From NCBI GenBank assembly GCA_020846975.1, contig JADLCX010000054.1, positions 62,001 to 126,000 on the forward strand: a stretch of DNA of 64,000 nt, in the 5' to 3' direction. Numbering within the stretch: the first letter of the stretch is position 1; each line of letters opens with the position of its first letter. The notes beneath the pieces were generated by a model that worked only from the letters and a program-made list of their open reading frames with translations, did not search any database and was not told the origin of the DNA. This document shows positions 8,973 through 64,000 of the stretch, one piece after another. Both the position numbers and the translations under genes were made by a program. The stretch is from Phycisphaerales bacterium. GTDB lineage: Bacteria; Planctomycetota; Phycisphaerae; Phycisphaerales; UBA1924.

Positions 8973-11015
8973 ATGACGCGAACGCCTTTCACATCAACCC
9001 TCCTCGCGCTGGTGCTCTCGAGCGGCCTGGCCGTCTCCGCCGCCCACGCGCTCGACCAGAACGCCGCGCCGGCCAAGTCCGCCACGGACGCCTCCGCCGC
9101 GCGCCTGATCGTCCCGACGCACGCCGGACCGCGCGCCTTCCTTGTGGATGCGCCCGATGCGCCCTCCAGCCCCGCATCGCGCGACGATTCCGCCGAACCC
9201 GATGAACACGGCAAGCCCCGCGGCCAGACCACCGGCTTCCGGCTCACCGCGCGCGTCATCATCCGCGCAAAAGACCCCAAGGCCGTCGCCGCCGCGCTCG
9301 GCCCCAAGCCCGCCGTCAAACTCATGCCCGCCGCGCCGGCCGGCGCCCCGACGACCGGCGAACTGCGTGAGTTCCACTACGCCGATGCGCCCACGATCCG
9401 CGCTGCCATCGCGCTGGCCGACACCCTCGCCAGGTCTCCCGGCATCGACCTCGCCTATCTCGACATCGAATGGCCGAAAACCCTGCGCAACAACATTCCC
9501 ACCGATCCCTTCCTCGTCTCGCAGTGGCACCTGATCAACACCGCCACCCCCGCCGCCGACACCAACGCCGATGCCGCGTGGAAGAGCGGCTTCACCGGCG
9601 CGGGCGTGACCGTCGGCATCCTCGAGGGCGGCTGGGACTCGACCCACGAAGACCTCGCGCCGAACTTTGACGCGGCCGCCAGCCAGTCCAGCGCCAACTT
9701 CAGCGACCACGGCACCTCCACCGCCGGCCTCGTCGCCGCCGCGGCCAACAACGCCCACGGCGGCGCGGGCGTCGCCTGGGGCGCGCACATCTCCAAGCAG
9801 TTCTACGGCACCGCCTCCGAGATCAGCGCCGCCTTCGGGTTCGCCAACGACATCAACGACATCAAGTCCAACTCCTGGGGGCCTTTCGACAACGGCCGCA
9901 TCGCCGCGATCGATCCGCTCGAACTCGCCGCCATCCAGGACGCCGCCACCGCCGGCCGCGACGGCAAGGGCGTCATCATCGTCTGGGCCGGCGGCAACGG
10001 CGGCCAGAACAACAACGACCGCGTCGATTACGACCCGTACGCCTCAAACCGCTACGCCATCGCCGTCGGCTCGATCGACGCCGCCGACCGCAAGGCCCTG
10101 TATTCCGAGCCGGGCTCGGCGCTCATGGTCGTCACCACCTCCGACTACGACATCAACGCCTCCAACGACGTCGGCATCTTCACCACCTCCAGTTTCAACG
10201 GCTACACCACCAACTTCGGCGGAACATCCGCCGCGGCCCCGATCGCCGCCGGAATCTGCGCCCTGGTCCTCGATGCAAACCCGGAACTGACCCGGCGCGA
10301 TGTCCAGCACGTGCTCATCCGCTCGGCCCGCCGCTGCAACCCCGCCGACCCTTCCTGGCGATTCAACGGCGCGGGAACGGGCCAGCTCCGCATGCACAGC
10401 GACCTCTTCGGCTTCGGCGCGCTCGACGCCGGCGCGGCCACGACCCTCGCGCAGTCCTGGGTCAACCGCCCCGTCGAAGCGTCCTTCGTCTCCGATACCA
10501 TCAGCCCCGCGCTGAGCATCCCCGACAACAACACCACCGGCATCACCACCAGCATCGTCGCCGCCAGCCCGCTCATCGTCGAGCGAGCCCAGGTCACGCT
10601 CACGCTCCCGCACCCCTCGATCGGCAACCTCCGAATCCGCCTGATCTCGCCCAGCGGCACCGAGGCCCTCCTCGCCGCGCCGAGATTCGATTCCACCGTC
10701 GGCGGCTACAACAACTTCACCTTCACCGCCGTCAAGTTCTGGGATGAACGCGCCGCCGGCTCGTGGACCCTCCGCATCGCCGACGAGACCGCCGGCAACA
10801 CCGGCACGCTCACCGGTTGGCAACTCAAACTCCACGGATATGTCCCAACCTGCCCCTGCGACTGGGACCTCTCGGGTGGCGCACCCACACTCCAGGATCT
10901 CTTCGACTTCCTGACCTCGTTCTTTGCGGGCCGCGGCGACTTCAACGCCGACACCACGACCTCCGTCCAAGACCTGTTCGACTTCCTCGACTGCTGGTTC
11001 GGCGGCTGCGCCTGA
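8973..11015 (+). CDS. Subtilisin-like (S8) protease with P domain and dockerin
   Basis: Starting at ATG 8973 gives a 680-residue preproenzyme with a signal peptide (AHA-L near residue 27). An S8 peptidase domain follows with His246 in HGTSTAG, an oxyanion-hole region WAGGNGG, and Ser419 in GGTSAAAP. The position that is the catalytic Asp in other S8 enzymes is Glu218 (VGILEGGWDSTH), with Asp222 four residues on. After it come a proprotein-convertase P domain (about 500-625; VTLTLPHPSIGNLRIRL, GSWTLRIADE) and the C-terminal dockerin-like pair. The enzyme is presumably exported and surface-attached. An ATG 13 codons upstream (8934) is in frame but would precede the signal peptide with an unlikely extension. 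Confidence 0.85.
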   Translation: MTRTPFTSTLLALVLSSGLAVSAAHALDQNAAPAKSATDASAARLIVPTHAGPRAFLVDAPDAPSSPASRDDSAEPDEHGKPRGQTTGFRLTARVIIRAKDPKAVAAALGPKPAVKLMPAAPAGAPTTGELREFHYADAPTIRAAIALADTLARSPGIDLAYLDIEWPKTLRNNIPTDPFLVSQWHLINTATPAADTNADAAWKSGFTGAGVTVGILEGGWDSTHEDLAPNFDAAASQSSANFSDHGTSTAGLVAAAANNAHGGAGVAWGAHISKQFYGTASEISAAFGFANDINDIKSNSWGPFDNGRIAAIDPLELAAIQDAATAGRDGKGVIIVWAGGNGGQNNNDRVDYDPYASNRYAIAVGSIDAADRKALYSEPGSALMVVTTSDYDINASNDVGIFTTSSFNGYTTNFGGTSAAAPIAAGICALVLDANPELTRRDVQHVLIRSARRCNPADPSWRFNGAGTGQLRMHSDLFGFGALDAGAATTLAQSWVNRPVEASFVSDTISPALSIPDNNTTGITTSIVAASPLIVERAQVTLTLPHPSIGNLRIRLISPSGTEALLAAPRFDSTVGGYNNFTFTAVKFWDERAAGSWTLRIADETAGNTGTLTGWQLKLHGYVPTCPCDWDLSGGAPTLQDLFDFLTSFFAGRGDFNADTTTSVQDLFDFLDCWFGGCA

Positions 11016-48632: not shown

Positions 48633-48669
48633 GTTCCGAACCGGCGGGATTGGCCCGCCGGTTCGGAAC
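48633..48669. terminator. Perfect 16-bp hairpin between convergent genes
   Basis: GTTCCGAACCGGCGGG and CCCGCCGGTTCGGAAC with a 5-base loop. Lies between the dockerin gene ending at 48599 and the subtilase gene ending at 48695, so it may stop transcription from both sides. No T tract is seen on either strand. Confidence 0.55.
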
Positions 48670-48693
48670 ATCGGCAAGGACGCCGATGCCACG
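48670..48693 (-). repeat. REP-like element, GTGGC family, minus-strand copy
   Basis: Read on the minus strand: head CGTGGC, then ATCGGC-GTCCTT-GCCGAT. It matches the 24-base unit at 62836 at 22 of 24 positions. It ends one base before the subtilase gene's stop codon side. Confidence 0.6.
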
Positions 48694-48694
48694 T

Positions 48695-50653
48695 TCAACC
48701 CTTGTTGCGGGCCATCTCGACGGTCTTCTTGGGGTTGATGATCAGGCGGCCTTCGTGTCCGGGGAGCGGGTCTGCGCCGCGGGTCATGAGGTCGATGAGC
48801 TGCTGGGTTGTGAGCGAGGGGTTGACGGCGAGGACTTTGGCGGCGAGGTTGGCGGCGTTGGGGGCGGCCATGCTCGTGCCGGAATACTTGCGCTTCTCGC
48901 CGCCGGGGACGTAGCTGTCGACCTCGAAGCCATTGGCGTAGAGCTTGACGTTCTTGCCGAAGGTGGTGAAGCTGGTGGGCTTGCCGGTCTGGTCGATGGC
49001 GCCGACGGTGATGAGGTTGGGGAGGTTGAGGCCGCTGGGAAGGACCTCGGAGAAGTCGTTGTCGTTGTCGGAGTTTCCGGCCGCGGCGATGAAGAGGATG
49101 TCGGGCGCACCGCGCATGGCCTCCTCGGCGGCGGCCTTGCCGATGTTGAACATCTCGCGCGCGAGCGAGGCGCGCTCGTCGGGTGTCTTGCCGACGCCCT
49201 TGGCCTCGAGGGCATCCTCGATATCCTGGCGCGAGCCGCCGAAGCTCATGTTGACGACGCGGACGCCGGCCTTCTTGAAGTAGTCGATGGTGTCGCGGGT
49301 GGCCTGGGCCTCCTTGCGCGACTGCTCGATGGTGGGCGTGAGTTTGGGGATGCTGCGGTGGTCGAAGGTGATGCGTGCGTAGAGGATGCGGGCGTAGGGG
49401 TTTCCGGCAGCGGCGATGCCGGCGACGTGGGTGCCGTGGCAGTAGCCGCCCCAGAGCCCGAGGTCTTCGATGAAGGGGGTGACGGCGTCGGGCTTGAGGC
49501 TCCGCATATGGGCGCGGAGCTTGTCGGCCTCGGGGCTCTGGATGTTGTTGTTGAGGTCGCTGAAGGCCTTGTCGTACTTGCCGGCCTCCTCGCGCGGGGT
49601 CTTGAGTTCGCTCAGGTCGGCGAGCGGGCCGGGCACGCGGTTGGACTCGAGGTCGAAGGCGATGCCGTGGTCGTCATCGACAAAGCCGTTGTTGTCGTCG
49701 TCCTTGTTGTTGCCAGGGGTCTCGGCGGGGTTGGTCCAGAGCTGATCCTTGAATAGTTTGGTATCGACGCCGGAATCCCAGATGCCGATGACGACGGGCT
49801 TGCCCTTGTCGGCCTCGGTGAGCGTGACCTGGGTCGGGGTCCAGATGTCCTTGCCGACCTCCTTGCTCTCCTTCTCGTCGATGATGCGGGAATAGACCTC
49901 GCCGACCAGCGGCAGGACGGGGATCATCTTGGCGAGGGCGAAGCGGGCGCTGACGATGCCGCGGGCGATGTCGCCGGAGATCTCGCCGTTCTGCTGCTCG
50001 ATGACCTTGTCGACCATGCCCTGCATCTGGCCGACGATCAGGTCGCCGGTGATGATCTGGGCGCGGCCCTTGGTCTGGAGCACTTCCTCACGGACCTGAT
50101 CCCACGGCAGGGCGCGGATGCGGGCGTCGAGGTCCTTGCGGAACTCGTTGTCGAACCTGGCCTGCCCGGCGAACTCGCCGTCGCTGGCCTTCTTCGCGTT
50201 GATCATCGCGGTCAGCACCTGACCGGTCATGAGTTTCTTGGATTCCTTCCGTTCGAGGAAGCGGATGGTGCTGGCGTGGCCGAGGGCGTCGTCGTCGTGG
50301 CCTTCGAGCACGGCGATCTGCATGAGCAGCGTGTGGTAGTCCTGGAGCGTGGTCGGGTCTTCGATCCTGTAGGCCTTCAGGTCGTCCTCGGCGTCGGCCT
50401 TGACCTTCGATGCGAAGGCCTTGAACTTGTCGGCATCCTGCACGAGCTCGCTGGCCTTGCCCTCGATCTTGTAGGTGTGACGCGGCAGGTCGTCGGCGGT
50501 CTTGACGACCTTGCGGGTGTCGGGCTGTGACGCGGCGGGCGCGGGGGCGGGGGGGGCGTCCTTGGGCGCTTCCTTGGTCTGGGCGAGGGTGACGGACTGG
50601 ACGGCGCCGAGCGCGAGGCCGGCGATGAGGGCGAGACGGAACGAGGCGGACAT
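48695..50653 (-). CDS. Secreted subtilisin-like (S8) serine protease
   Basis: A 652-residue S8 protease with a signal peptide (TLA-Q near 24) and a long helical N-terminal region (about 45-280) that may be a propeptide or chaperone. The full catalytic set is present: Asp293 (GIWDSGVD), His406 (CHGTHVAG), Asn527 (AAAGNSD) and Ser594 (SGTSMAAPNAAN). An insert rich in Asp/Asn (NNKDDDNNGFVDDDHG) between Asp and His looks calcium-binding. No dockerin is present, unlike the protease at 9 kb. It probably acts in the periplasm or outside. Confidence 0.92.
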   Translation of the reverse strand: MSASFRLALIAGLALGAVQSVTLAQTKEAPKDAPPAPAPAASQPDTRKVVKTADDLPRHTYKIEGKASELVQDADKFKAFASKVKADAEDDLKAYRIEDPTTLQDYHTLLMQIAVLEGHDDDALGHASTIRFLERKESKKLMTGQVLTAMINAKKASDGEFAGQARFDNEFRKDLDARIRALPWDQVREEVLQTKGRAQIITGDLIVGQMQGMVDKVIEQQNGEISGDIARGIVSARFALAKMIPVLPLVGEVYSRIIDEKESKEVGKDIWTPTQVTLTEADKGKPVVIGIWDSGVDTKLFKDQLWTNPAETPGNNKDDDNNGFVDDDHGIAFDLESNRVPGPLADLSELKTPREEAGKYDKAFSDLNNNIQSPEADKLRAHMRSLKPDAVTPFIEDLGLWGGYCHGTHVAGIAAAGNPYARILYARITFDHRSIPKLTPTIEQSRKEAQATRDTIDYFKKAGVRVVNMSFGGSRQDIEDALEAKGVGKTPDERASLAREMFNIGKAAAEEAMRGAPDILFIAAAGNSDNDNDFSEVLPSGLNLPNLITVGAIDQTGKPTSFTTFGKNVKLYANGFEVDSYVPGGEKRKYSGTSMAAPNAANLAAKVLAVNPSLTTQQLIDLMTRGADPLPGHEGRLIINPKKTVEMARNKG

Positions 50654-56456: not shown

Positions 56457-58223
56457 TCACAACTTCCGGTCCAGCAGCCGGTACTGCACCGCCTCTCCAA
56501 CGTGCTCGGCGCCGACGGTGTCGGCGCCGGCCAGGTCCGCGATCGTCCGAGACACGCGGCGCACCTTGTCGTACGCCCGGGCGCTCAGCCCCATCTCGGT
56601 GATCGCCTGCCCGAGGATCGTCCGTGCGTCGTCGGTCATGGGCGCGAACTTGTCGAGTTCGCGCCCGCTCAGGCGCGAGTTCGTGGCGCCGCCCTGGCGC
56701 GCCGCCTGCCGCCGACGCGCGGCCATCACCTGCTCTCGCATCTGCCCGCTGCTCGTGCCCCGCGGCGTGCCCGCGTCGGCGCTGAGCTGCTTCCACGGCA
56801 CCGCCGGCGCCTCGACGTGAATATCGATGCGATCAACCAGCGGCCCGCTCAGCCTGGACAGGTACCGCTCCATCGCCCGCTTGCCGATCTCGTCGGCGGG
56901 CAGGTCGCCCTTCGGTGTCGGGTTCATCGCCGCCACGAGCATGAAACTCGCGGGAAAACGCACCGCGCTGTGCGACCGCGCGATCGTCACCACGTGGTCC
57001 TCCAGCGGCTGGCGCAGCGTCTCCAGCACGTCCCGGGGGAACTCCGGCAGTTCATCCATGAACAGCACGCCCCGGTGCGCCAGCGAGATCTCGCCCGGAC
57101 GCGGGATCGCCCCGCCGCCGACGATCGCCGCGCTGCTGGCGGTGTGGTGCGGCGTGCGCACCGGCCGGACCGTAATCAGCCCCGCACCCCCCGCGCCGGC
57201 CTTGCCGTCGTTCCCCGAGGGCATCATCCCCGCCGCCGAATAGATCCGCGTGATCTCGATCGCCTCGTCCGGCGAGAGCGGCGGCAGGATCCCCGGCAGG
57301 GCGCGGGCCATCATCGTCTTGCCCGTGCCCGCGGGGCCGAGCATGAGCAGGTTGTGCGCACCCGCCGCGGCCACCACGATCGCTCGCTTCACGGCCTCCT
57401 GCCCGCGGACATCCGCGAAATCCACGGGCGCGGCCCCCGCCGCGAGCAGCGATTCCACATCCGCCGGCGCGTGCGGTCGGGCTTCGAGCGTCCCGTTCAG
57501 GAAGCCGAGCACCTCGATCAGCGTCCCCGCGCCGATCGCCTCGACCCCGGGCACGACCGCCGCCTCGGCGACATTGGCGGCCGGGACCACCACGCCGCGC
57601 AGCCCCCGCGCCTTCGCCAGAGCCGCCATCGCGATTACGCCCCGCACGGGTCGCAACCGCCCATCGAGCGCAAGTTCGCCGGCGAACAGGTACTGGCGAT
57701 GATCCAGCGGTTCGATCGCCGCGGCATCGGCATCCGTGGGGGTGCCGATGTCGTCCTTGTCGTGCACACCCTCCGCGAACGGATCGAACGGCCGCGGCGC
57801 GCCTCCCCCGCTCGTTGTCCCCTTTCTCGCCCCGGTCATCGGCGGTGATGCCGATGCCACGCCGTGCCTGGCCCGCGCGCTCCGTACCGCCACCTGCACG
57901 CCCCGGCCCCCCACCACACCCAGCGTGTGCAGCAGCCCCACCGCGATCGGCAGGTCGTACAGCGGCCCCTCTTTGCGGATATCCGCCGGCGCGAGGTTGA
58001 TCAGCGTGCGTCCGCCCTGCACCGGGTAGCCGGAGTTGCCCATCGCCGCGCGCACACGCTCGATCGACTCCTTCACCGCCGTGTCGGGCAGGCCCACGGT
58101 CGTCGTCCGCGTCTTCTCCTCGCTCATCGCCCCCGGCCCGGATCCGATGTCGTAATCAACCTCGACCTCGCACGGGAGGGCATCGATGCCTTGCAGGACG
58201 TACGACTGGACTCGGGCGAGCAT
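56457..58223 (-). CDS. comM: YifB/ComM-type Mg chelatase-like AAA ATPase
   Basis: A 588-residue YifB-family AAA+ protein; ComM helps integrate DNA during natural transformation in other bacteria. It has the Lon-protease-like N-terminal domain (VGLPDTAVKESIERVRAAM, INLAPADIRKEG), Walker A MLGPAGTGKTMMARALPGILPP, Walker B VLFMDELPEFPRDVLETLRQPLEDH, and a zinc-free C-terminal domain. About 60 extra residues lie between YDLPIAVGLL and LFAGELALDG (about 108-165) compared with E. coli YifB. Two REP-like elements lie in this insert in inverted orientation. Confidence 0.9.
   Translation of the reverse strand: MLARVQSYVLQGIDALPCEVEVDYDIGSGPGAMSEEKTRTTTVGLPDTAVKESIERVRAAMGNSGYPVQGGRTLINLAPADIRKEGPLYDLPIAVGLLHTLGVVGGRGVQVAVRSARARHGVASASPPMTGARKGTTSGGGAPRPFDPFAEGVHDKDDIGTPTDADAAAIEPLDHRQYLFAGELALDGRLRPVRGVIAMAALAKARGLRGVVVPAANVAEAAVVPGVEAIGAGTLIEVLGFLNGTLEARPHAPADVESLLAAGAAPVDFADVRGQEAVKRAIVVAAAGAHNLLMLGPAGTGKTMMARALPGILPPLSPDEAIEITRIYSAAGMMPSGNDGKAGAGGAGLITVRPVRTPHHTASSAAIVGGGAIPRPGEISLAHRGVLFMDELPEFPRDVLETLRQPLEDHVVTIARSHSAVRFPASFMLVAAMNPTPKGDLPADEIGKRAMERYLSRLSGPLVDRIDIHVEAPAVPWKQLSADAGTPRGTSSGQMREQVMAARRRQAARQGGATNSRLSGRELDKFAPMTDDARTILGQAITEMGLSARAYDKVRRVSRTIADLAGADTVGAEHVGEAVQYRLLDRKL
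57720..57749 (+). repeat. REP-like element, GTGGC family, inside comM
   Basis: CGCGGC head, then ATCGGCA ... TGCCGAT with a longer 9-base loop (57720-57749). It is a divergent member. Together with 57838-57861 it makes an inverted pair about 90 bases apart inside the extra segment of comM. Confidence 0.5.
57838..57861 (-). repeat. REP-like element, GTGGC family, inside comM
   Basis: On the minus strand: CGTGGC then ATCGGC-ATCACC-GCCGAT, 22 of 24 bases as in the 62836 copy. It lies within the comM coding sequence, in the residues ARHGVASASPPMTG. Confidence 0.55.
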
Positions 58224-60989: not shown

Positions 60990-61745
60990 TCACGTCCCGC
61001 GCGTGTTCCCGAACAGTTCGATGTGAAGCCTCATGCAGTACCGCCACCCGCGCCCAACACACGCCTCGGCCACGCGCCGGGCGAACTCCGGGCGCGGCCG
61101 CGTCACACCCTCGGGCATCAGCAGCACATCTTCCGACCGCACATGAAACCCTGAGAGCAAGGCTTCGATCTCTCTGAGGTCGGCCTCGAACGCGGCCTCC
61201 CTCACCACAAACTTGACCTGCCGATCGCGCCCACGCTCCCCCTCCCTCGCACGCGCGGGATCGTGCTGATCCAACAGCGCACTCAGCACCGCCGCGTTCA
61301 GCCGGCGCGCCTCGTGACGCTCTGTCCACACCCCAAGCGGGTCGCGCACATCACCCCGCGGCGTCGAGTTCGCCAGTTTCGGGCTGATCGAGATCAGGTG
61401 ACAGGTCACGCCGCCCGGAGGGATGACCGTCCCCGCGGTCTCGATCGTGATGTGCATCCCGCACTCGGCCGCGAGGCGCGACGAGAACTCGGTCAGTTGC
61501 GGGAACATCATCGGCTCCCCGCCGGTCAGCACCGCGTGCCGCACACCGCTGGAGCGGGCGTCTCGCAGCAGGTCATCGATCGTCCTCGCATCCCCCTCCG
61601 GACTCCAGGACGCGTACGGCGTGTCGCACCACGCGCACCGCAGGTTGCACCCCGACACGCGGCAGAACCACGAGGGCACACCCGTCAGCTTTCCCTCGCC
61701 CTGGATGCTGGTAAAGGTCTCGGAAATGGGGATGGTCACCGTCAC
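60990..61745 (-). CDS. queE: 7-carboxy-7-deazaguanine synthase QueE
   Basis: A 251-residue radical-SAM enzyme in queuosine/preQ0 synthesis. FTSIQGEGKLTGVPS is the family start, and the cluster motif is CNLRCAWC (CxxxCxxC). TGGEPMMFPQ and IETAGTV follow. It ends ELFGNTRGT. Start is uncertain among GTG codons 61787, 61745 and 61739; 61745 is used, as it leaves a short leader before the ISETFTSIQGEG strand. queC is next on the same strand, about 335 bases upstream. Confidence 0.93.
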   Translation of the reverse strand: MTVTIPISETFTSIQGEGKLTGVPSWFCRVSGCNLRCAWCDTPYASWSPEGDARTIDDLLRDARSSGVRHAVLTGGEPMMFPQLTEFSSRLAAECGMHITIETAGTVIPPGGVTCHLISISPKLANSTPRGDVRDPLGVWTERHEARRLNAAVLSALLDQHDPARAREGERGRDRQVKFVVREAAFEADLREIEALLSGFHVRSEDVLLMPEGVTRPRPEFARRVAEACVGRGWRYCMRLHIELFGNTRGT

Positions 61746-61800
61746 GGCCCCATCGTAGTGGCCACTCTCCCGAACATCGCCCTGCACGGGTGTAGTTCAA

Positions 61801-61847
61801 GTTTGTGGTGGCGGGGTACCCCGCCCCCAGTTCTCGCCACCACAAAC
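61801..61847. repeat. 13-bp inverted repeat with GGGGTACCCC in the loop
   Basis: GTTTGTGGTGGCG (61801-61813) and CGCCACCACAAAC (61835-61847) are exact complements. The loop contains the head-like palindrome GGGGTACCCC, possibly a rearranged member of the GGGTACC family. It lies between queC and queE. Confidence 0.5.
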
Positions 61848-62010
61848 CTGGACCACACCCCCCTACACCTCCCGCGGCGTGCCTGCCCGCCATCGGCCAT
61901 CTCAAGAAGCAGCGCAGAATCAGTAGCCTGCCACGCCGCATCTCTCGCACGAGTCGGAGTCCGGGCCTCGCGCGACCGGACCACGGCACAGCAAGCACCT
62001 CCGAACTCAA

Positions 62011-62039
62011 GCCCGCCCCGGCCCTTCGCCGGCGCGGGC
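62011..62039 (-). terminator. GC-rich hairpin after queC
   Basis: GCCCGC-CCCGGC pairs with GCCGGC-GCGGGC with a small bulge. On the minus strand it follows queC by about 40 bases, then TTGAGTTC. A weak terminator is possible. Confidence 0.4.
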
Positions 62040-62080
62040 CTTTGAGTGCTTTGAGACCCTCGCCCGTTCTCCGCGACGAT

Positions 62081-62824
62081 TCACGCGTAGCGCGTCGTAT
62101 CCCGCACACCCGCCTCCTCAAACCCCCGCCGCCGGATCACGCACGAGTCGCACCGCCCGCACGCCAGCGCTTGCTCATCCCTCACCACCGGGTCATAGCA
62201 CGAGTGCGTGAGCGCAAAATCCACGCCCAGTTCCGCCCCGCGACGGATGATCGCCGCCTTGCTCATCCGCACCAGCGGCACGCACACCCGCAGCGCACCC
62301 CCAACCTCGCCGCGCGCCAGCGCCTCGACCCCGGCCTTGGTCCCCAGGTTCGCCGCGCGCTCGAACGCCTCGATGAACTCGGACCGACAATCCGGGTACC
62401 CCGAATAGTCCACCGCGTTCACCCCGATGTAGAGCCGCGACGCGCCGACCGTCTCCGCGAACCCCGCCGCGCACGAGAGAAACACCAGATTCCGCGCCGG
62501 CACGTACGTCACCGGCACCCCGTGCGCCATCTCCCCCGCCCCGCCAGCCCCTCCCGCGCCCCGACCCTTCGGCACCTCGATCCGCGTATCCGTTAGCGCC
62601 GACCCGCCGATCGCATCCAGCCCGACCCGCACCACCACATGCCTCTCGGACGCGACACCCAACCGCCCCGCCACCCGCCGCGCCGCCGCCAGTTCGTGCC
62701 CGTGCCGTTGTCCGTAATCAAAGCTGATGGCAAAGCAGCCTCCCGCGCCGACTTGTTCGCGCGCGATCGCGAGCGCGACAGCCGAGTCCAAACCTCCCGA
62801 GAGCAGCACGACGGCCCGAGTCAT
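62081..62824 (-). CDS. queC: 7-cyano-7-deazaguanine synthase QueC
   Basis: A 247-residue ATP-dependent enzyme that makes preQ0 from 7-carboxy-7-deazaguanine. The ATP-binding SGGLDSA motif is near the N-terminus, [11 protein letters not shown] follows, then [11 protein letters not shown], and the C-terminal zinc site is [16 protein letters not shown] (with the preceding SCYDP). A Gly/Ala-rich loop ([12 protein letters not shown]) is present at about 88-100. It is divergent from plsC. Confidence 0.95.
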
Positions 62825-62835
62825 GGGCAACAGTA

Positions 62836-62859
62836 CGTGGCATCGGCATCCCTGCCGAT
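62836..62859 (+). repeat. REP-like element, GTGGC family, copy upstream of plsC
   Basis: Head CGTGGC followed by ATCGGCA-TCCC-TGCCGAT (7-bp stem, 4-base loop). It is identical over 24 bases to the copy at 63665. It is 12 bases from the queC start and 18 bases before plsC. Confidence 0.7.
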
Positions 62860-62877
62860 CCCTCTACCATCCGCCCC

Positions 62878-63663
62878 ATGCCCGCGTGGCTCGCCGCATC
62901 CATCCTAATCTGGCTCCTCTGGGCCGCGCTCGCCAACGTTCTCGCCCGCAACCCTCGCGCCGAGCCCCTCACCGGCCTCGTGCTCATCTTCATGCGCCTC
63001 TACGCGCGCGGGTTCCATCGCCTCCGGGTCTCCGGCCGCGAGCACATCCCGCGCTCCATGCACCCCGGCTCGCTCATCGTCCTCTGCAACCACACCGCCG
63101 GCGTCGATCCCGTCCTCGTCCAGGCCGCCGTCCCCTTCGAGATCAAGTGGATGATGGGGCGCGACATGATGCCCGCGCGGCTCCAGGGCCTCTGGGAGTT
63201 CACCGGCGTCATCCCCGTCAATCGCGGCGGAGGAGGCGACACCACCGCCGCACGCATGGCCATGCGCTATCTCGAAGATGACGAAGCCGACGGCCGCGCG
63301 CGCAGCGGCCGCAACCACGGCGGCGGGGGGGTGATCGGCATCTTCCCCGAGGGCGGCATCGAGCGCCCGCCGCGCACCATCCTCCCCTTCCAGCCCGGCG
63401 TCGGCCTGCTCATCAAGCGCTCCGGCGCGCCCGTGCTGCAAGCCATCATCGACGGCACGCCCCAATCCCCCACCGCCTGGGGCAGCCTCTTCCAGCGCTC
63501 CACCCGCGCCGTCACCATCCGCTTCCTCCCCATCCGCGATTACCGCGCCCCCGAGTTCACGAAGCTCTCCGCCACCGACATCGCCGAAGACCTCCGCAAC
63601 CGCCTCATCCAAGAGACCGGATGGCCCGCGACCAACGAACGCAGCGCCGAGACGCAGCGCTGA
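62878..63663 (+). CDS. plsC: 1-acyl-sn-glycerol-3-phosphate acyltransferase (PlsC-like)
   Basis: A 261-residue acyltransferase. An N-terminal membrane helix (LAASILIWLLWAALANVLA) precedes the catalytic NHTAGVD motif (NHx4D), the GVIPVNR segment and FPEGG, all typical of PlsC. It should acylate lysophosphatidate in membrane lipid synthesis; other glycerolipids are possible. Two identical REP-like elements bracket it, one 18 bases before the start and one two bases after the stop. Confidence 0.88.
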   Translation: MPAWLAASILIWLLWAALANVLARNPRAEPLTGLVLIFMRLYARGFHRLRVSGREHIPRSMHPGSLIVLCNHTAGVDPVLVQAAVPFEIKWMMGRDMMPARLQGLWEFTGVIPVNRGGGGDTTAARMAMRYLEDDEADGRARSGRNHGGGGVIGIFPEGGIERPPRTILPFQPGVGLLIKRSGAPVLQAIIDGTPQSPTAWGSLFQRSTRAVTIRFLPIRDYRAPEFTKLSATDIAEDLRNRLIQETGWPATNERSAETQR

Positions 63664-63664
63664 C

Positions 63665-63688
63665 CGTGGCATCGGCATCCCTGCCGAT
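63665..63688 (+). repeat. REP-like element, GTGGC family, copy after plsC
   Basis: Identical 24-base copy of the 62836 element, two bases after the plsC stop and 63 bases from the RAYT gene's 3' end. Confidence 0.7.
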
Positions 63689-63690
63689 GT

Positions 63691-63723
63691 GCCTTCAGGC
63701 GGGGTCAACCCCCGCCTGAAGGC
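63691..63723. terminator. 14-bp perfect hairpin between plsC and RAYT
   Basis: GCCTTCAGGCGGGG pairs exactly with CCCCGCCTGAAGGC, with a 5-base loop. It lies directly after the REP-like copy, between the convergent plsC and transposase genes. It may be a terminator for both or part of the repeat unit. Confidence 0.6.
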
Positions 63724-63751
63724 AGCAGCACGCGCCCGTAGCACCCTCGCA

Positions 63752-64000
63752 TCAGACACCCCGACACCCCACCCACTGCCAATCCCTCAACCCCGCCTTC
63801 GCCGGATTCTCCAACACGTACCGCACCGCGTGTGCAAACTCCTCCTCATCGCGAATCAGGTGATCGTACGACTCCGGCTGCCAGAACGCGCCAGTTCTCC
63901 CAAGCAGCTTGTTCGCCTCGCTGGAAGTAAACCCCTTCCACGAGTGCAGGATCGCCGAGAGCCCAAACCCCTCGCGCGGCCGGAACACCGCATGCACGTG
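63752..64000 (-). CDS. REP-associated tyrosine transposase (RAYT), 3' part
   Basis: The last 82 codons of a minus-strand gene cut by the right edge of the window. The first complete codons read HVHAVFRP, the HUH metal-binding motif of Y1 transposases (IS200/IS605-like). LSAILHSWKGFTSSEANKLLG, WQPESYDHLIRDEEEF with the catalytic Tyr (ESYDHLIR), and AVRYVLENPAKAGL follow, matching the RAYT group. Such enzymes bind and move REP palindromes. The window's REP-like elements fit this. Confidence 0.85.
   Translation of the reverse strand, partial: HVHAVFRPREGFGLSAILHSWKGFTSSEANKLLGRTGAFWQPESYDHLIRDEEEFAHAVRYVLENPAKAGLRDWQWVGCRGV

Follow-up and report, generated by a model that had tools for sequence, protein, structure and literature searches.

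A GTGGC-headed REP family with a single RAYT gene in a Phycisphaerales genome, and relatives of the RAYT in frame within host genes

The window, a 64,000-nucleotide stretch of a Phycisphaerales contig, ends in a group of genes interspersed with short palindromes. Two minus-strand genes, queE-like and queC (60990-62830), adjoin a REP element at 62837..62859 (+), which lies in the divergent intergenic region between queC and a plsC-like acyltransferase gene (62878..63663, +; PF01553). A second REP element (63666..63688, +) begins 2 nt past the plsC stop codon and is followed directly on its 3' side by a further hairpin with a 15-bp stem and the loop TCAAC (63690..63724, +). The two REPs are the same 23-mer, GTGGCATCGGCATCCCTGCCGAT, in agreement with a preliminary description of this DNA that had reported two identical copies bracketing plsC. 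The second copy is also located 3' of a RAYT gene on the minus strand, the 3' part of which is present in the window (63752..64000) as an open frame that matches Y1_Tnp, scores just under the curated cut-off for REP_Tyr_transpos, and aligns with 4er8. At lower coordinates, the stop codon of a minus-strand subtilase-like gene (48695-50653) is separated by 2 nt from a REP on the same strand (48670..48692), and a second hairpin lies directly 3' of that REP (48633..48669, -; loop CCAAT). The remaining two elements, a REP on the minus strand (57838..57860) and a degenerate, GCGGC-headed REP on the plus strand (~57719..57748), are the arms of a 142-bp inverted pair (57719-57860) with heads outward. 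Both are held by an in-frame insertion of ~66 residues in yifB (57696..57926, -; YifB residues 100-176) as compared to ComM and TIGR00368. All five related elements that had been claimed were located, at positions that were broadly right except that the plus-strand starts had been given one base early, and while those at 57720 and 57838 are real, they are a pair inside yifB and not intergenic.

The open frame in which the motifs HVH and ESYDHLIR had been noticed is also real and continues beyond the window end, the whole gene occupying G000:C54:125752-126357 (window 63752 to 64357) and encoding 201 aa. The protein scores 29.8 bits against Pfam Y1_Tnp, above the cut-off of 23. Its best NCBIfam match is the REP-associated tyrosine transposase (NF047646; 74.9 bits, curated cut-off 80), and it reaches 14 bits against the IS200 model (NF033573), for which the cut-off is 55. 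Alignment with E. coli TnpAREP (4er8) pairs HVH with HMH, WQPESYDHLIR with WQPRFWEHAIR, and YVLENP with YIYINP. The HuH motif and catalytic tyrosine are in place (H120, H122, Y180, N184), and the tyrosine motif is Y..N (Y..NP) rather than the Y..Q of IS200. The guide-reading residues W159, Q160, D165, H166, and R169 are present as well, matching W94, Q95, E/D100, H/R101, and R104 of the E. coli protein. When the model of a Phycisphaerales homologue with 62% identity (pLDDT 88) was compared with known structures, E. coli TnpAREP (4er8) matched best. Judged by motif against Table 1 of PMC6006769, the RAYT fits subclass 2.4 (group 4), with NHVH, WQ, YVLENP in place of YIxNNP (V replacing I, and E the first N), and a length of 201 aa as compared to about 194 aa. 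It is a single-copy gene, the sole match to the RAYT profile and the only full-length RAYT of this kind in the genome, and it is flanked by cognate REPs. One REP (63666) lies on its 3' side. Beyond the window, on its 5' side, where the preliminary description had asked for copies to be sought, C54:126385-126586 holds three copies repeated directly every 31 bp and a fourth in inverted orientation. A unit composed of a REP plus the second hairpin, ~63 bp in length, forms a direct repeat on both sides of the RAYT.

The genome assembly (4.2 Mb, 102 contigs) was searched for further copies. The pattern GTGGCATCGGC-N2..10-GCCGAT gave 44 exact sites as compared to 0 for a reversed-pattern control, and the wider family GTGGCAYSGGCN3-7GCCSRTG gave 62 sites as compared to 1; the number of repeats is far above chance. 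Because the loops vary, a pattern in which the loop was fixed and the A after the head was left out matched nothing in the genome. Since ~19 of the 44 copies are letter-identical, spread appears to have been recent or conversion frequent. As expected of REPs, the many dispersed copies carry a GT[AG]G tetranucleotide 0-2 nt from a GC-rich hairpin. The base before the head is C in 49 of 68 copies, and C also tends to precede the GTAG heads of relatives; inspection by eye revealed no evident covariation between the head-preceding dinucleotide and the third base of the head, so that the guide rule does not show in these bases. Inverted pairs of the REPIN or BIME type, heads outward and 116-145 bp in length, are present at C54:126447-126586, C54:154677-154816, C60:48274-48418, and C63:34777-34892, together with single and direct tandem copies.

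Directly after many REP copies stands the second hairpin, with a 15-bp stem and a loop that is mostly YCAAY. The stem sequence changes between copies while pairing is kept, in rows partly selected for pairing. Covariation in the stem was 0.80 as compared to 0.19 after shuffling, and as most rows were chosen for forming a hairpin, this is only suggestive of kept pairing. An Rfam scan returned tRNAs only. The copies may fall into separate subfamilies, distinguished by TTCCA or CTCCG loops or by the second hairpin. A TTCCA-loop element occurs as three direct copies with a 40-bp period at L036 (G000:C59) 9581-9683, within the subfamily that does not have the long second hairpin, and the sequence at L031 6894-6925, GTATGGCGGCTCTCCGAGCCGCC, resembles another REP-like hairpin family near the RAYT.

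The copies show a marked positional preference, and with the genome-wide enrichment this goes against the refutation that the preliminary description had set out. Among the 67 with enough flanking sequence, 22 begin 0-7 nt past a stop codon, head first, so that the gene reads towards the head, where 0.15 would be expected at random positions. One element has a stop codon in this position on its tail side, and seven were scored inside genes. In E. coli, ribosomes stall at REPs that lie no more than 15 nt from a stop codon (cited in PMC12306157), and by analogy the copies just past stop codons may affect translation termination or the 3' end of the mRNA. The head-first arrangement leads to a direct prediction for the translation of plsC and ~20 other genes. 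Both this placement and the second strong hairpin on many copies are what would be anticipated if the hairpins were structures selected by the host at 3' ends, as terminators, mRNA stabilizers, or translation attenuators, with the nearby RAYT a coincidence. Such an origin would not, however, account for copies within genes and in tandem arrays, and two further results argue against it. First, RAYT homologues in other phyla have the same flanks. In named genomes from many phyla, 53 homologues were found, and most of the top ones are flanked within a few hundred bases by GTGGC- or GTAGC-headed hairpins, often as one inverted pair on each side, in a range that takes in Phycisphaerales, Verrucomicrobia, Lentisphaerae, and Coatesbacteria. 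Second, copy number tracks the presence of a RAYT. Of the 29 genomes in which the RAYT match was strong (at least 195 bits), 15 had at least five repeat copies, as compared to only 9 of 363 others (P = 1.6e-13 for 392 genomes of the phylum, uncorrected for phylogeny). Host-selected 3'-end structures beside an unrelated RAYT are accordingly a very unlikely explanation.

Two genomes run counter to this link, in that the GTGGC repeat occurs 23 times in G098 and 65 times in G210 while neither has a RAYT match; either the RAYT was lost or the assembly is incomplete. Partial RAYT-like C-terminal domains were also observed in frames of 1224-1389 aa, of the same family and order, in G319 (L249), G325:C16, and G303:C33; G319 has 21 REP copies, two of them near its partial domain.

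The locus very likely belongs to a REPtron, comprising one RAYT (a TnpAREP of subclass 2.4 or group 4 by motif) and ~60-70 GTGGC-headed REPs, some arranged as REPINs of ~140 bp. The REP/RAYT identity put forward in the preliminary description is supported by the Y1_Tnp domain, the best NCBIfam match (just under its curated cut-off), the 4er8 fold of a homologue, and the shared flanks in other phyla. The spread of the REPs was probably driven by the neighboring RAYT, a nuclease for single-stranded DNA. By analogy with studied homologues, the RAYT would bind the hairpin in single-stranded DNA by way of its GTGG guide and stem-loop, would cut beside the hairpin with its HuH/Tyr site, and could thereby copy or move REPs and REPINs. 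The guide rule, GTGG to CC, is taken from PMC8266576 and would predict a CC target for this head.

Many relatives have a RAYT frame that is not closed by a stop codon at either end and that reads via in-frame REPs into a host protein. Named by profile support, the hosts are tsaC/Sua5 (L046, L051, L052), valS (L049), alaS (L149, L151, L158), purH (L170), a FabZ paralogue (10 genomes), a chorismate-binding, menF-like enzyme (L047), BREX pglX-like and other methylases (L152, L160, L166, L061, L168, L175, L243, L244), a DinG-like helicase (L167), an SNF2/NOV helicase (L057, L058), an FAD/OYE enzyme (L163), and uracil-DNA glycosylase (L067, L069). The same host family was recognized on both sides of the RAYT for tsaC, valS, alaS, purH, the FabZ paralogue, and some methylases; the remaining hosts were recognized from one side only. 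Frames of at least 350 aa were found for 31 of the 91 RAYT matches examined, although frame length alone is weak evidence of insertion in GC-rich genomes. BREX pglX-like methylase frames with an in-frame RAYT recur in different genomes (L152, L168, L243, L244), and at L057 (3001-3564) a short REP-like in-frame insertion lies within the RAYT itself, between the HuH motif and the tyrosine. That the interrupted fabZ is the essential FabZ was considered and rejected; the genomes in question also encode an intact canonical FabZ at another place, so the interrupted gene is a paralogue. No report of RAYTs inside named host genes was found in the open-access literature, and the in-frame arrangement is an unexpected variant of which no description was found there.

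The genomes concerned are mostly MAGs, and the inserted RAYTs might be decaying pseudogenes, or else products of misassembly or of fusion at the annotation level. Some cases are not clean: the alaS frame is broken in G120 and G247, and the RAYT at L048 contains a stop. Unexpectedly long proteins were removed as fusions or annotation errors by Quentin 2018 (PMC6006769). Against artefact stand host profile matches on either side of the RAYT within a single stop-free frame, and the occupation of an identical site in different genomes. The alaS insert lies between ...VRVLTMG and FSMELCGGTHV... in a single loop of the editing domain, and relatives have either the empty site, MGREGFSKELCGG, or, in one case, nothing more than a REP-like peptide, MGISSGAGVPPTQQAPFSLELCGG. 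Where a second copy of alaS, purH, valS, or tsaC was looked for, none was found, other valS matches being weak, so that the interrupted gene is the only copy found. A model of the Sua5-RAYT fusion made with AlphaFold was good in the RAYT part and unreliable in the Sua5 part, for which there were three Sua5 rows only, and it was set aside.

Conservation of the inserted RAYTs also speaks against decay. The two histidines and the tyrosine are kept in 33 of 33. Across seven fabZ-like hosts that were compared, dN/dS of the RAYT was 0.08-0.28 where estimable, and pN/pS was 0.25-0.36 where synonymous sites were saturated, while the REP-derived linkers varied freely; a dN/dS close to 1 would be expected from frame-keeping alone. 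A tree built from 65 RAYTs places the tsaC inserts in a single clade (100/97); in it, the fabZ-like hosts require two changes, alaS requires three, and all host labels together require 15. These host-label changes indicate that RAYTs entered host genes several times and were then inherited. It is very unlikely that the in-frame RAYTs are artefacts or pseudogenes.

In these relatives, host coding sequences have taken up a REP-RAYT-REP unit in frame and kept it, and the inserts would be expected to be translated and active. One possible reading, put forward tentatively and at somewhat less than even odds, is that permissive loops of essential genes offer the unit a protected niche, in which the RAYT would be translated as an internal domain, would stay catalytically active, and could not easily be lost, as most deletions would disrupt the essential gene. 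If true, the RAYT would be a nuclease gene kept in the way that inteins are, without splicing. A question for the REP field is how single-copy RAYTs persist without the movement typical of an IS, and in-frame residence in essential genes, together with purifying selection on the nuclease, would be one concrete answer. It would also mean that an additional HUH domain, filtered out by surveys as annotation error, is present in the annotated AlaS, ValS, TsaC, PurH, and FabZ-like proteins of some Planctomycetota and Verrucomicrobiota.

An ordinary IS200/IS605 insertion sequence, with the elements as its subterminal hairpins, is very unlikely. It would fit the Y1_Tnp domain and the presence of hairpins to either side of the gene, but the tyrosine motif is Y..NP, the IS200 model gives only 14 bits, one gene copy stands against ~60 dispersed hairpins, and the GTGG head and WQxxxxDHxxR segment are as in TnpAREP. 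As a REPtron, the system in the window is of a known kind. The head and stem had not been recognized in the preliminary description, but the GTGG tag is already published: the head rule is GT[AG]G, and GTGG heads are recorded for Pseudomonas and Opitutus terrae (PMC2817692, PMC3733652, PMC6006769). With the TnpAREP/RAYT subclass 2.4 (Bertels group 4), as far as the available text of PMC6006769 describes it, the system shares NH[IFV]H, WQ, and Y-I/V-x-x-NP motifs, a length of about 194-201 aa, GT[AG]G heads, a distribution over many phyla, and REP-like in-frame insertion in a RAYT, seen here at L057. That text reports in-frame REP insertions in tnpAREP and mentions them for unrelated genes; the survey set aside unexpectedly long proteins, and no description of in-frame RAYTs in essential genes was found in the part available. 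The GTAG-tagged REP super-family (PMC3733652), which includes GTAG-20 of O. terrae with GTGG, has in common with the present family a short hairpin with a GTRG tag, occurrence in Planctomycetes and Verrucomicrobia, inverted dimers, and copies after or inside genes. The family in the window differs in its own head and stem, GTGGCATCGGC, and in the second 15-bp hairpin, of varied but paired stem, after many copies in its genome. E. coli TnpAREP with its REP (4er8) and the group 3 systems (PMC8266576) share the HuH motif and tyrosine, the guide-contact residues, and the overall fold, whereas the REP here has a perfect short stem with no bulge and a GTGG guide instead of GTAG. Inteins and rickettsial palindromic elements, which serve here as analogies and no more, likewise involve in-frame insertions in genes that are probably still functional; no splicing is proposed here, and what is inserted includes an entire HUH nuclease domain.
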